IMG/VR virus record: IMGVR_UViG_3300045135_000391
Span: 1 to 39,841 of that record
Length of the DNA: 39,841 nucleotides
Direction: 5' to 3' (one strand)
DNA from: a virus
The position numbers and the translations under genes were made by a program. Below are positions 12,623-31,872 of the stretch, piece after piece (positions within the stretch are counted from its first letter, which is position 1; every line of letters begins with the position of its first letter). Below the pieces are notes generated by a model. It ran no database searches and was not told where the DNA came from. It saw only the letters and a program-made list of their open reading frames with translations.

Positions 12623-13372
12623 ATGAAAATGACTCTCCTCGAAATGGTTCAGAACATCTTGTCCGACATGGATTCGGAGGAGATCAACAGTATTGTAGAT
12701 TCTAATGAAGCTGAACAGATTGCTAAAGTAGTAGAGAATACTTACTTTGCAATGATTGCTACTCGCTTTATCCCTGAGCATTCTCAGACTCTGAAGCTTA
12801 CTTCTTTCTCTAGTTCAGCCCGTCCTACTCACTTCTCATTCCCTGACCGTGTTAAGAGCATTGAGTTCCTCGACTACAACGTATCTAAGGCTGTGGGTGG
12901 GGTTGAGTACCGAAGACTTAAGTACCTCAGCCCTGATGAGTTCTTTGGTCTCTCAGATGGCCGAGACAGTCTAGCCTCTAACGTAAAACAGGTTGCTGAC
13001 GTAGGTTCTGAAAGCATTCTTCTTATTCGTAACGATGCTATGCCTATGTACTACACATCGTTTGATGATGACACTATTGTACTAGACTCGTATGACGCAT
13101 CTGTGGATGCTATTCTTACATCAACTAAGACACGGACCTACGGAGTCAAGTATCCTACGTTTGATTCCTTCTCTGATACCTTTGTACCAGACATGGATGA
13201 TACGATGTTTCCTTTCTTGTTGGCAGAGGCTAAGTCTACTGCAATGTCTCTGTTTAAGTCAGGTGCTGATCCTAAGATCGAACAGACTGCTCGTAGACAA
13301 AAGGTCTATGTTCAGAACGATATGCATAAAGTAAACACAGGAAGAGCTAAGAACAACTATGGCAGAAATTGA
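12623..13372 (+). CDS. Tail tubular protein A (T7 gp11-like)
   Basis: This protein would form the adaptor ring below the portal. It is 249 residues from ATG 12623; a GTG at 12614 would add three residues and overlap the previous gene. It begins MKMTLLEMVQNILSDMDSEEINSI, then EAEQIAKVVENTYFAMI and PTHFSFPDRVKSIEFLDYNV, which are typical of T7-like gatekeeper/tail tubular A proteins. The Arg/Lys-rich C-terminus (QTARRQKVYVQNDMHKVN) is also typical. It precedes tail tubular B in the usual order, with one small gene between. Confidence 0.85.
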   Translation: MKMTLLEMVQNILSDMDSEEINSIVDSNEAEQIAKVVENTYFAMIATRFIPEHSQTLKLTSFSSSARPTHFSFPDRVKSIEFLDYNVSKAVGGVEYRRLKYLSPDEFFGLSDGRDSLASNVKQVADVGSESILLIRNDAMPMYYTSFDDDTIVLDSYDASVDAILTSTKTRTYGVKYPTFDSFSDTFVPDMDDTMFPFLLAEAKSTAMSLFKSGADPKIEQTARRQKVYVQNDMHKVNTGRAKNNYGRN

Positions 13373-23239: not shown

Positions 23240-24004
23240 ATGGGAAAAGACTACTCAGATCAGGCAGAGGAGGCGGTACTCCCTAAGTTCGGGGAGACCA
23301 GTGATAAAGTAAAGGCACTACAGACAGCTTTGATTGAAAGGGGTTTCACAGAAGTAGGCAAGGCTGACGGTATTTACGGTGAAGCTACCCGAAAAGCAAT
23401 CTCTAACCTACAGAACAAAGCAGACCTAGAGGTTTCTGGGTTATTAGACCAAGATACATTCATCAGTCTGTATCTTCAGCCTGTTAAAGCTAAAGCAGCT
23501 GTGGATACATCTAAAGAGGCTAGTCTTAAACCTTCGTCTACTACTCAGACTACTCTTCGCAGAGTTGAGGCAGGAGGTTACGACACTCTCTATGGTAACT
23601 TTGAGAAACAAAATACACCGTTCAAGGGTGTATCTGTTTCAAGCATGACCATTGGCGAGTTGATTGAGTTCTCTAAAGCTTCTGGAGCTTATGGGCGGTA
23701 TGTTAAGCCACGCCTAGGTAAGAACACCTACGCATACAAGAATGGTCTTACCTCTACCCCTATGGGTAAGTACCAGATTGTAGGTTCTACTCTTCGAGAC
23801 CTTTCTCGTCGTATGAACCTTCCTGCTGACACAGTGTTCAACAAAGAAACACAGGACAGGATGTTCCTGTTTCTTGCCCGTGAGAACGTAGCTAAGGGTA
23901 AAACTCTTGCAGATAAACGTAAGAATTTACGGAGTATCTGGGAAGGCTTCAAGCACGTAGACAACAGTACACTGGACCGTATTATTCAGGAGATTGGTAA
24001 CTAA
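23240..24004 (+). CDS. Virion-associated lysozyme with peptidoglycan-binding domain
   Basis: I chose ATG 23240 because AAAGGG precedes it and the longer frame overlaps the previous gene out of register. The 254-residue protein has a PG_binding_1 domain at residues 20-75 (KVKALQTALIERGFT...ADGIYGEATRKAI). A C-terminal lysozyme-like domain follows, with RRVEAGGYDTLYGN (candidate catalytic E110), TSTPMGKYQIVGSTLRDL and ETQDRMFLFLARENV, a layout typical of phage muramidases. No signal peptide is seen. Located at the end of the virion-protein genes, it is probably a structural enzyme that opens peptidoglycan during entry, replacing the activity absent from the large internal protein. Confidence 0.8.
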   Translation: MGKDYSDQAEEAVLPKFGETSDKVKALQTALIERGFTEVGKADGIYGEATRKAISNLQNKADLEVSGLLDQDTFISLYLQPVKAKAAVDTSKEASLKPSSTTQTTLRRVEAGGYDTLYGNFEKQNTPFKGVSVSSMTIGELIEFSKASGAYGRYVKPRLGKNTYAYKNGLTSTPMGKYQIVGSTLRDLSRRMNLPADTVFNKETQDRMFLFLARENVAKGKTLADKRKNLRSIWEGFKHVDNSTLDRIIQEIGN

Positions 24005-27213: not shown

Positions 27214-27659
27214 AGTTTGATCAACTCTGCTTGTGTGAATGGGATGTGAAAGAACTTCTCACCCTTCTGGATGTAACGTCCCTTGGCTTCCTTGAGACTT
27301 TCCTGAGTTAACAGTGTATCCTTGATACGCCATGCCTGCTTGAAGTCTGGTCGGAAGATATAAAAGTTAAGTACACTCTTGCCATCGTCAACATGTTTGT
27401 CAAGTAGACGTTGCTTGCGCTGGGGGATACGTATCTCAGACCAGTGAGTAGGCCAGTCACCCTTCCATGCAGTCTTAACCTCTACCTCATTAAAATAAGT
27501 ATATCCTCCCTTCTGAGAAACAACATCAACATTGAAGTTCTCTTCGTTGTTTACAATGATGTGACCTTTTAGTTCAAGATAACCAACCAGAGCATCACGA
27601 GCAGGTGTATCGTAGGCTTCGTATAGTGCTCTGTCAAATTGCTTACGTACTACTGTCAT
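27210..27659 (-). CDS. Nuclease-like protein (PD-(D/E)XK-type candidate)
   Basis: The protein is 149 residues from ATG 27659 (GGAGTATTTCA upstream), chosen over the longer frame to 27692. It contains NVDVVSQKGGYTYFNEVEVKTAW, where D of NVDV and E/K of EVEVK fit the D...ExK core of the restriction-endonuclease-like fold, followed by RIPQRKQRLL and FYIFRPDFKQAW. The assignment is from motif only. It lies between glutaredoxin and phoH with overlaps on both sides. A role in host DNA degradation or DNA processing is inference. Confidence 0.65.
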   Translation of the reverse strand: MTVVRKQFDRALYEAYDTPARDALVGYLELKGHIIVNNEENFNVDVVSQKGGYTYFNEVEVKTAWKGDWPTHWSEIRIPQRKQRLLDKHVDDGKSVLNFYIFRPDFKQAWRIKDTLLTQESLKEAKGRYIQKGEKFFHIPFTQAELIKL

Positions 27660-27879
27660 TGAAATACTCCTTAAGTTCTGTGTAACCACCAATAAATTCG
27701 TTGTTGCTGTCGAATATTTGAGGCACTGTGTTAGTTTGCTTGAGAATAGCTACAATCGATTTAGTGTCTGGGTCTTGTACGTCATAGACATCTACCGTAT
27801 GCCCGTGGCTATTAAGTAATCCCAGTGCAGCAGTACAGTACTTACAGTTGTCTTGAGATAACATTATGTAGTGTGCCAT
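27643..27879 (-). CDS. grx: Glutaredoxin
   Basis: The 78-residue protein has the thioredoxin-fold redox motif C12-K-Y-C15 (variant of CPYC) after a first strand HYIMLSQ, then NTVPQIFDSNNEFIGGYTEL with the cis-proline TVP and GGY segments of glutaredoxins. It would reduce the C-terminal Cys pair of the class II ribonucleotide reductase encoded upstream. It ends 17 bases inside the following gene. The gap between it and nrdJ holds a structured non-coding region. Confidence 0.9.
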   Translation of the reverse strand: MAHYIMLSQDNCKYCTAALGLLNSHGHTVDVYDVQDPDTKSIVAILKQTNTVPQIFDSNNEFIGGYTELKEYFNDSST

Positions 27880-28153
27880 GTTGTCCTTTCTGTATGACCT
27901 TTACGTCATAGCGTAAGTTTATGACTTTTACGTCATAGAGTAAATGAGCAGTTTCTACACTTACTCAGGTGTTAGTTCCCTACTCATAATGGGCCGTAGC
28001 CTATTGTATAGGGAGGTCACGACTATGTGGCTTTACACAGGGAGGAGCCGAAGCCTGTCCCTCGTCGCTAAAGACCCTTGGTGGTGATCAACCCACCTCA
28101 CCATGTAGACATCCATGGGGTCTTACCGAAAGGTAAGGGTAAACAAGTTAAAC
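27880..28153 (-). ncRNA. Structured intergenic RNA candidate between nrdJ and glutaredoxin
   Basis: This 274-base gap, unusual in an otherwise overlapping operon, has no plausible gene. On the minus strand I see: CTTACC-TTTC-GGTAAG hairpin (28121-28136); a stem AAGACCC/GGGTCTT enclosing hairpins CCATG...CATGG and GGTG...CACC, forming a three-way junction; AGGGA/TCCCT enclosing GGCTTCGGC with a UUCG loop; TGTG/CACA; CCTAT-ACA-ATAGG; and TCCCTA/TAGGGA. On the plus strand the first hairpin closes with GAAA, so the active strand is uncertain. The dense pairing suggests a functional RNA (sRNA, processing or regulatory element). It does not match a riboswitch or group I intron that I can identify. 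Confidence 0.45.
27893..27937. repeat. Tandem palindromes TATGAC-n6-GTCATA
   Basis: Two 18-base dyads, TATGAC/GTCATA with six-base centres (CTTTAC and TTTTAC on the plus strand), begin at 27893 and 27920, 27 bases apart. They lie just upstream of the glutaredoxin start. They may be operator sites or short RNA hairpins; no T-run follows. Confidence 0.6.
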
Positions 28154-30058
28154 TTACGTCAGGTCAACAATCTCACAGCTGTCGCCAGAACAGGCTAGTG
28201 TCTGACTTCCAGATGTGTTGTCCTCTTTCTCATACTCTGCCAGCAAAGCCCAGTCAATAGACTTAGGCATAAGAGACAACAGTTCTTCGTACTCAGACTT
28301 ATCACAGTCCTGATAAGGGGCTTGTTGATAAGTATGATCTGAGTGAGGTAGAAAAGATACCCCAGACATTTCATCAAAGTGTTTGTAGACAAAGGATGCT
28401 ACCTCTACCCACTCACAATCTTTTACTGAGATAGTAACACTTGGCTTATGTTCACACCAGTGACGTTGATAAGTCAACCATGTCTCCAGCTGTTCGATAG
28501 CTGTTGTAGCATTACGAGTTACAGCATTGTCTGGAGCCTTCATAGGAAAACTAAACACTGTTGTCTGTTCAGGCTTAACCACACAAGGTTGACTAGGGAT
28601 ACCTTGGTCCTTCATGAACTGCGTCAGTGGGTCTTTGTTGTCTCCTCTTACGGTTCTAATGTAGTAACCGTTATGACGGGCATGGATACCAGAGGCACTA
28701 TCGACCAGTTGTGAGACTGTTCCTGACGGTTTAACGCAGGAGATAGCAGCAGCAACAGGAATACCGAGTAGATCAGCCCAATGAGCATTTGTCTCAACTG
28801 CAATCTCCCGAAGCTTCTCTAGTGTCTTATCCAAACCAGCATTGGCACTCGTCATCAGAGGGTTGTCCATGATACCTGTGAGGCTTACACCCAGCAGGCG
28901 TTCAGCCTCTGTGTTGTCTCGCCATACTTTACGAAGATAAGGCATCTTAGTGTAAGTAGACTGGATAGTACCAAGGATGGTTGCCAGCTTTACTTTCTCA
29001 GCAAGTGTATCGAAGGTATCAGATGCTCTTACTACAACCTCTGTCAAGTTACAGAATTGATACGGACGGAGGATGATCTCAGAGCACGGGTTAGTACCAA
29101 ACTCAAAGTTAGGATCACGACGACCATTCTTTGCTGCCTGTTTCTTAGAGGCCTGACGGTTGAAGATACCCCGTTCACCTGAGCCACTCTCTACTAGTGC
29201 TGTCCACTCACGCATGAAAGATGCAGCATCTGGCTTCTCTGTGTAAGAGACCGAGTTGTTAGCCAAGGCACGTTGAGGGTTTGTTTCCCACCATGAACCT
29301 GACTTAGCATGACGCATACGGTCATCCGAAAGGTTTGACAGAGAGATCATGGCTGATCGACGTACACCACCTACAACAACAACCTCACCAATCTTACACA
29401 TCAAGTCGTGACACTCAACAGAAGAAAGCTTACGTCCCTGAGCACCTTTGAATGTGTTAACTGCAAAGTTAAACAGATCAATCAGTGGCGCTGGGCCTGA
29501 TGCACGACCACCAAATGTCTTCAAACGAGAACCAGCTGGACGAACACCTGACACATCCCACTTAGGAATTTCACCACTATACAGGAGTGCAATAACTTGA
29601 CGCAGAGCCTTAGCCCAACCTTCCTTGCTATCCTTTACGAAGATAGTGGTATCACTCTCGAAGAGTTCAGGAACCTCTGGGAGCTTGCTGATGAACTGAC
29701 GTTCTACAGAGAAACCAACTCCAGTCCCACAGAGCAGGATGAACATAGCCTCATCGAAGGACTTAAGGTCGTCTACGGGTAGGTAGCTACAGTTGTACAT
29801 ACATGTGTTGTCACGAGCAGCCGCTGGGCCAGCTGTCGTAAGAGAACGCATGGAAGGCATGACATTGAGGTCAAGGATAGCTGTTTCAAGAGCATCAGCT
29901 GTGGCTACATCAACCTTGTCGCCTACGAGGTTAGTCATGTAACGGTTGACTGTCTCACCCCATGTCTCACGACGACCCTCTTCGTCAAGCCAACGGGCAT
30001 AACGTGATGTGTGGATGAATGCTTGGTAGTCTGTAGGTAGGTAGTTGCTGGTGCTCAT
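28154..30058 (-). CDS. nrdJ: Adenosylcobalamin-dependent class II ribonucleotide reductase
   Basis: NrdJ reduces ribonucleotides to deoxyribonucleotides using adenosylcobalamin, without a separate radical subunit and with no oxygen need. The 634-residue protein has the reductase barrel: DNTCMYNCSYLPV, FILLCGTGVGFSVERQ, the GGVRRSAMISL segment, NPCSEIILRPYQFCNL (active-site Cys and Glu) and a C-terminal redox pair C623-SGDS-C628. This monomeric B12-dependent type is a hallmark of cobaviruses and SIO1-like phages. B12 must come from the host or surroundings. Its start overlaps the MazG-like stop (ATGA); a structured gap and glutaredoxin follow. Confidence 0.95.
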   Translation of the reverse strand: MSTSNYLPTDYQAFIHTSRYARWLDEEGRRETWGETVNRYMTNLVGDKVDVATADALETAILDLNVMPSMRSLTTAGPAAARDNTCMYNCSYLPVDDLKSFDEAMFILLCGTGVGFSVERQFISKLPEVPELFESDTTIFVKDSKEGWAKALRQVIALLYSGEIPKWDVSGVRPAGSRLKTFGGRASGPAPLIDLFNFAVNTFKGAQGRKLSSVECHDLMCKIGEVVVVGGVRRSAMISLSNLSDDRMRHAKSGSWWETNPQRALANNSVSYTEKPDAASFMREWTALVESGSGERGIFNRQASKKQAAKNGRRDPNFEFGTNPCSEIILRPYQFCNLTEVVVRASDTFDTLAEKVKLATILGTIQSTYTKMPYLRKVWRDNTEAERLLGVSLTGIMDNPLMTSANAGLDKTLEKLREIAVETNAHWADLLGIPVAAAISCVKPSGTVSQLVDSASGIHARHNGYYIRTVRGDNKDPLTQFMKDQGIPSQPCVVKPEQTTVFSFPMKAPDNAVTRNATTAIEQLETWLTYQRHWCEHKPSVTISVKDCEWVEVASFVYKHFDEMSGVSFLPHSDHTYQQAPYQDCDKSEYEELLSLMPKSIDWALLAEYEKEDNTSGSQTLACSGDSCEIVDLT

Positions 30059-31016: not shown

Positions 31017-31872
31017 CTTCCACTTCCCCTACTCTGGGGGCTTTCTCGACATGTGTAAGGTACACAGTACCAAAGCTATACCCAAAACCCCGCAGACCTG
31101 TGCCGTTGTTAGCATCCTTCCAACACTCCTTCTTAAAGGGACAGAAGGCACAACCCATAGGGAGTTTCTTGTTCCCGTTAGTCTCAGTTACTTCCTCGTA
31201 GCACCGTTCTGGTGGTGTGTCAGAGGCCAAGGCTTCCTTGAGATAGTCTACTCGTTCCTGTGTGTCAGGTAAGAAGTCAGGGTCAGGTTGGAAGAGGGTA
31301 AGTTTACCATCAACCTTGTTCATAGCTAAGAACCCTGAACCCTTGTTACCCTCTACTGCCTCTGAGTATGCTGCGATCTGGTTCATGTAACCAAAGGGAT
31401 CATCAAAGACTAATGAACCCTTATCGAACTTCTTGAAGGCAGCAGCTGAGGCAGACTTAACATCAATCACATGACCATCAATCACTGCGTCCATGTGTCC
31501 TGTGATACCTGCAACTACTACTTCCTGTTGCTCATTTGTCACACTGTGACCAGAAAGTTTAGCTAGAGTAAGAAGAACTTCTTCGATAACGTCACCGTAG
31601 AAAAACTTGAGTAGTTGGTCTCCAGTAAAGTCAGGCTTCTCTACCCCTCGGCTATCGTACCACAGTTGTCGTGCGGGTTTACCGATAGCGGACAGTCGAA
31701 GAGTACCACCTGAGCTTTCCCGTGGTGGCAAACGAGACTTCATCAAGTCCTTCATGGCTTCACCAAAAGCATCAATCAGTTTCTCGTTGTCAGGAGACTT
31801 ACTGTAACCATCAGTGAAGACAGAGTAGATGTCATCAATCAGGGTATCAATGCTCTTGGTTTCCTCAGTCAT
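31009..31872 (-). CDS. PD-(D/E)XK exonuclease (RecB/Cas4-like)
   Basis: The 287-residue protein probably acts as the phage DNA exonuclease, in the position of T7 gp6. The core motifs are GDVIEEVLL (E97), GHMDAVIDGHVIDVKSAS with D128 and D137-V-K139, and QIAAYSEA. A C-terminal CAFCPFKKEC cluster could bind a metal or Fe-S cluster as in Cas4/AddB-type nucleases, but fewer cysteines are seen than in those. It sits between DUF5664 and endonuclease I with overlaps on both sides, consistent with a joint role in host DNA breakdown and recombination. Confidence 0.85.
   Translation of the reverse strand: MTEETKSIDTLIDDIYSVFTDGYSKSPDNEKLIDAFGEAMKDLMKSRLPPRESSGGTLRLSAIGKPARQLWYDSRGVEKPDFTGDQLLKFFYGDVIEEVLLTLAKLSGHSVTNEQQEVVVAGITGHMDAVIDGHVIDVKSASAAAFKKFDKGSLVFDDPFGYMNQIAAYSEAVEGNKGSGFLAMNKVDGKLTLFQPDPDFLPDTQERVDYLKEALASDTPPERCYEEVTETNGNKKLPMGCAFCPFKKECWKDANNGTGLRGFGYSFGTVYLTHVEKAPRVGEVEVE

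Follow-up and report, generated by a model that had tools for sequence, protein, structure and literature searches.

The gap between nrdJ and the glutaredoxin gene (grx) in the window, by which we mean the whole analysed stretch of 39,841 nucleotides, has as its core a 28-nt H-type pseudoknot, one of a family that is carried by phages, has not been classified before and lies 3' of genes. The fold of these pseudoknots, their co-directional position after stop codons, their G-poor 3' tail and their near absence from cellular genomes are established computationally. Their putative function, to which the sequences lend slightly less than an even chance, is that of a 3'-end barrier that protects the upstream phage mRNA.

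A tiny RNA with exact compensatory changes, which occurs in phages of very different hosts and is nearly absent from cells, points to a shared viral need without a name. Should the pseudoknot indeed guard the 3' ends of messages, it would reveal a way in which phages deal with RNA decay in the host, and RNA stabilisation in bacteria would gain a compact natural tag; whether or not it has a function, phage intergenic regions gain a new annotation marker. No description of the motif was found in literature searches of limited reach, outside which many subscription papers lie. Large computational surveys of viral RNAs exist, and one of them may list the motif unnamed.

Pairing and distribution of the pseudoknot

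The pseudoknot of the window, B (27945–27972, minus strand; ACACCUGAGUAAGUGUAGAAACUGCUCA), is built from the helix S1 (ACAC/GUGU), the one-base loop L1 (C), the helix S2 (UGAGUA/UGCUCA), the loop L2 (A) and the loop L3 (AGAAAC). The consensus of the family is N-C-N-C C U-R-A-N-Y-A n G-N-G-N nn AAAC U-G-N-U-Y-R. The two helices are interleaved, which makes the fold an H-type pseudoknot, and each of them displays compensatory change. The searches for covariation used patterns that required a non-consensus base at both positions of a predicted pair. For the middle pair of S1, where the pattern allows nine base combinations of which four are able to pair, all 107 distinct variants were complementary (T-A 87, C-G 10, G-C 10), and the same was true of all 45 variants at the fourth pair of S2. 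When 111 sequences were aligned, 98.0% of the cells were paired, compared with 87.2 ± 0.6 in shuffles, and the covariation score was 0.342, compared with 0.141, where it must be kept in mind that pattern-based selection fixes some bases and that pairs which never vary carry no evidence. Structures slid along the same 111 sequences gave only 19–40% paired.

Isolates found by BLAST, outside the patterns, carry S1 as UGUC/GACA (S-H35 and NatCom_3357), AGUC/GACU (S-EIVl), CGUC/GACG (Mycobacterium phage Labelle) and CGAC/GUCG (phiEF-1.1), so that S1 is fully paired in these five in spite of its altered sequence, the pair that the patterns had fixed included. In crAss-like cr7_1, Erwinia phage Berlingot and Escherichia phage phiEcoM-GJ1 three of the four S1 pairs are kept. 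Several of the isolate matches are weak when taken alone (E 0.05–2), and it is their pairing and position that make them credible. That B is an RNA structure is thus well supported. An earlier note on this DNA, made from the sequence alone, had proposed covariation as a check on the stems that it drew; covariation is indeed present, but it is confined to the 28-nt pseudoknot, which is not one of those stems. A role for B at the level of DNA, as an operator or an endonuclease site, is disfavoured, because variable positions keep their pairing and not their sequence. The loop and stem bases CC, U, A and AAAC are conserved beyond what pairing needs.

In the window copy S2 has a competitor, a 9-bp hairpin (GAGUAAGUG/CAUUUACUC) in which sequence 3' of B pairs with part of B. 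The program RNAfold, which ignores pseudoknots, prefers the hairpin (−9.6 kcal/mol against −4.3 kcal/mol for S2, without a pseudoknot term), while across the family the 38-nt core has S2 in its minimum-energy fold in 249 of 290 copies. The window copy may be a switch, a decayed member of the family or simply mis-scored.

The consensus CACCTRAGYANGTGNNNAAACTGCTYR occurs in at least 120 stretches of IMG/VR. The bacterial and archaeal genomes of GTDB, 257 Gb altogether, contain one match, on a contig with a tail-sheath gene, and this speaks against an origin in bacterial genomes. Isolates with B range from cyanophages to Mycobacterium phages; the T4 genome has no match to the B pattern. Among 35 records searched over their whole length, 30 hold one copy and five hold two to four. 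Three to four copies lie within about 3 kb of one phage in the loci L361 (11745–14191) and L367 (9949–12755, reverse strand), which is possibly a repeat-driven variant, and in a few contigs B occurs in tandem. In Erwinia phage Berlingot (L401, 910–2428) about 1.5 kb without annotation separate a spanin gene from the gene that follows, and within them lies a pseudoknot-like copy.

Position relative to genes and putative function

The position of the family is defined by the gene that precedes it. A same-strand reading frame stops at most 70 nt upstream of the pseudoknot in 220 of 271 copies, compared with 68 of 270 in the opposite-strand control. The commonest spacing between stop codon and knot is 5 nt, 106 of 189 spacings fall between 3 and 13 nt, and there is a sharp lower limit at 4–5 nt; for a quarter of the same-strand copies the distance is about 38 nt or more. 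Copies are also found at operon ends, and convergent gene ends (21) outnumber divergent gene starts (3), counts which, coming from a crude gene caller, are indicative only. In 10 loci a tRNA gene starts 2–12 nt 3' of the knot, and a tRNA gene is never found upstream. The genes upstream belong to 66 unrelated families, among them Hsp20, SSB, a DUF932-like protein (recognised by eye from sequence), many unknowns and two types of NrdJ that are only about 27% identical. The link to B12-dependent dNTP synthesis suggested in the earlier note is lost with this variety of neighbours.

The knot is followed by a tail that is poor in G. In the window this is the G-free 10-nt segment UUUACUCUAU (27935–27944, minus strand), which overlaps the first of the C repeats described below. 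In the family the frequency of G is 0–0.10 in the first nine positions after the knot and about 0.2 further on; the tail is enriched in U, with at least seven U in 12 in only about 29% of the same-strand copies.

Consider now a phage mRNA that has been cut downstream of the knot by RNase E, or by RNase P at an adjoining tRNA, or that has ended at a terminator. Exoribonucleases working in the 3'-to-5' direction would digest it back to the knot and stall there, leaving about 10 unpaired bases, and the message upstream, nrdJ in the window, would be stabilised. Cleavage by RNase P at an adjoining tRNA would by itself give the mRNA a 3' end immediately behind the knot. A barrier of this kind would explain the stop-proximal position, the unpaired tail, the arrangement with tRNAs and the indifference to gene and host. 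B shares with 3' exonuclease-blocking elements, REP-like or xrRNA-like, the position on the 3' side of genes. The 66 upstream families, together with hosts that range from cyanobacteria to mycobacteria, favour a mechanical role that is general. Small pseudoknots at RNA 3' ends are an established means of engineering against 3' exonucleases, and on pegRNAs such a pseudoknot limits degradation by them (PMC11946880). Against a 3'-end barrier it counts that most genomes have only one or two copies, which is odd for a general stabiliser, that a start codon follows shortly downstream in more than half of the copies, that the bases conserved beyond pairing make recognition by a protein possible, and that RNAfold favours the 9-bp hairpin over S2 in the window copy.

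These conserved bases, paired as well as unpaired, could instead mark the binding site of a protein, in the style of T4 gene 32: an SSB-like protein, another RNA-binding protein or a ribosomal factor, which when bound would control translation or decay of the surrounding genes. The H-type topology is that of the gene 32 operator, and SSB families occur among the upstream genes. We regard such a site as unlikely, since B lies 3' of 66 unrelated families in phages of very different hosts, which have no flanking gene in common.

The start codons downstream could also mean that B is a 5' leader element, a riboswitch or a translational operator, of the gene that follows, which in the window is that of the glutaredoxin. 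A Shine–Dalgarno sequence and a start codon are found within 70 nt downstream in 148 of 271 copies, and B lies between nrdJ and grx in several cobaviruses. The downstream genes, however, fall into 71 unrelated families without a consistent link to B, copies with an upstream reading frame and no nearby start number 102 while the reverse case numbers 30, and there are few divergent starts in the counts given above. A riboswitch or leader also fits badly with the tRNA genes that stand directly downstream in 10 loci, and we consider it quite improbable.

The sharp lower limit of the spacing and the placement directly before tRNAs would both be expected if the knot were an insulator that halts ribosomes, after termination or while reading through, before they reach the gene or tRNA that follows. 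Short pseudoknots are generally unwound by ribosomes, and the quarter of same-strand copies that lie far past the stop would be out of place, so that this function has only a slim chance of being the right one. The idea that stop-codon readthrough carries nrdJ into grx via the knot was rejected: the frame is open in one relative (L146), as read from its sequence, but meets an in-frame stop at once in L085, and the freely varying spacing between stop and knot also counters it.

The U-enriched tail and the copies at operon ends suggest a transcription terminator or attenuator, in which a pseudoknot replaces the hairpin. Such a terminator is hard to reconcile with the co-transcribed tRNAs and genes that follow on the same strand within tens of bases; runs rich in U are the exception among the same-strand copies, and terminator calling gave none in the gap of the window, all of which makes it very improbable. 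Mimicry of a type III antitoxin, which would also be a pseudoknot RNA in one to four copies, was considered, but neither a toxin gene nor a repeat array was noticed beside the motif.

The remainder of the gap

The virus record (39.8 kb) has the cobaviruses SIO1, CRP-5 and ICBM2 as relatives. Its nrdJ gene (28154–30058, minus strand), which encodes an adenosylcobalamin-dependent (class II) ribonucleotide reductase, ends at 28154 and grx (27643–27879, minus strand) starts at 27879. The 274 bases in between, 27880–28153, hold no minus-strand reading frame of 40 or more amino acids, and between 26.2 and 34.6 kb neighbouring genes overlap or come close to it; a long gap without a gene among tightly packed neighbours, as noted earlier, is therefore genuine. 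The gap folds better than its shuffles, none of 200 being as good (z = −4.0 for the minus and −4.2 for the plus strand), but its raw stability is not unique, since its minus-strand z ranks fifth among 289 windows of the same genome. Similar minus-strand values (−3.9 to −4.4) occur at 13016–13289, 23565–23975 and 31237–31510.

Comparison of the gaps among relatives reveals that the minus strand is here a mosaic of four small modules and not one folded RNA. Module D (28016–28153, minus strand, 138 nt) contains the hairpins and three-way junctions that the earlier note had drawn. D is unique to this genome, a search with its loop sequences returned only chance matches in apparently coding DNA, and its fold, taken alone, has no unusual stability (z = −1.1). 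Of the hairpin caps in the earlier note, UUCG and GAAA belong to different strands: the first hairpin of the gene strand has a UUUC cap, and GAAA is confined to the plus strand. Module A (27977–28015, minus strand) is the hairpin CUCCCUAUACAAUAGGC-UACG-GCCCAUUAUGAGUAGGGA. A few related phages have nearly identical copies of it, in which one end pair shows a compensated change from U-A to C-G. Module C (27893–27944, minus strand) consists of two direct repeats, 27918–27944 and 27893–27917, of (C)UUACGCUAUGACGUAAAGnUCAUAAA with a spacing of 27 nt, just upstream of the ribosome-binding site of grx. Its repeats are found also in SIO1, in an Octadecabacter phage and in 18 IMG/VR stretches, in some directly after nrdJ and in some before a ribosome-binding site, and these repeats, of the CTTACGCTATGACGTAAAGATCATAAA type, are widespread in related phages. 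Module C could fold into a pseudoknot like that of gene 32 (UUACG/CGUAA with UAUGA/UCAUA), or it could be a DNA operator.

The pseudoknot B occurs in most of the longer gaps among relatives, a share that is biased because some loci were fetched by the motif itself, and we infer that D, A and C are its exchangeable neighbours in the nrdJ–grx gap. Persistence of the gap in close relatives, on which the earlier note had made its case depend, is partial: CRP-5 has a 4-base gene overlap in its place, while the gap measures about 119 bases in relatives whose NrdJ is 94–98% identical and about 110 bases in SIO1. In L090 (3394–3508) and the matching region of L093 an extra structured stretch of about 115 nt, closed by AGGGG/CCCCU, lies between A and B, and the gap thus seems to be a place of exchange for RNA modules. 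Relative to the window, L083 (SIO1), L087 and L092 have in place of the nrdJ of this locus a class II reductase only about 27% identical; the downstream gene stays in all three, and the pseudoknot stays in SIO1 and L087. The z of the whole gap might suggest that all 274 nt form a single branched RNA that regulates in connection with B12-dependent dNTP synthesis. This is largely refuted and scarcely credible, given that the modules occur separately in relatives, that D is unique and not unusually stable, and that close relatives have a shorter gap or none.

Comparison with known systems

The gap contains a functional RNA structure outside every Rfam family, in keeping with the earlier statement that it matches no class that could be identified. 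A scan of the window with Rfam 15 gave only a tRNA, and across the gap nothing credible appeared at E values up to 10. In the loci that bear the motif only tRNAs reached the gathering score, and no relaxed match could be assigned to the motif; a tRNA or a group I intron as the content of the gap is without support from Rfam.

The pseudoknot of T4 gene 32 lies in the 5' leader of that gene and is bound by gp32 (PMC3014915). It resembles B in being an H-type pseudoknot of a phage intergenic region with a first loop of one base, and its leader has the string CUAUGA...UCAUA in common with module C. B differs from it in sequence and loop lengths and lies 3' of many unrelated genes, the window copy being placed between nrdJ and grx, and is not an operator of this type. 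STAXI elements are small pseudoknots that occur in repeats close to genes for SSB and for other DNA-handling proteins (PMC2864571). They are small like B, which is itself in tandem in a few contigs, but are repeated two to three times and often have UUCG loops, whereas B usually stands alone, its loop is nnAAAC and it finds no match in Rfam, which sets it apart from STAXI.

With regard to position, B resembles the short structured elements that stand behind genes and between the genes of operons. In enterobacteria these are the REP-type structures, which are thought to slow 3' exonucleases. REPs are hairpins that occur in hundreds of copies in cells, whereas B is a pseudoknot, has one to four copies per phage and is nearly absent from cells.

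The exoribonuclease-resistant RNAs and 3'-UTR pseudoknots of eukaryotic RNA viruses are, like B, compact and viral; they lie in 3' UTRs and stop an exonuclease. Their opponent is the 5'-to-3' enzyme Xrn1, whereas B belongs to dsDNA phages and the putative enzyme would be a 3'-to-5' exonuclease or RNase J. By analogy, and with a probability that we place rather below even, the B family may be the dsDNA-phage counterpart of these RNAs, a phage-specific, nuclease-resistant 3' cap. Such a cap would, on the same tentative footing, be set on selected messages in unrelated phages of cyanobacteria, proteobacteria, Bacteroidota, Bacillota and Actinomycetota.
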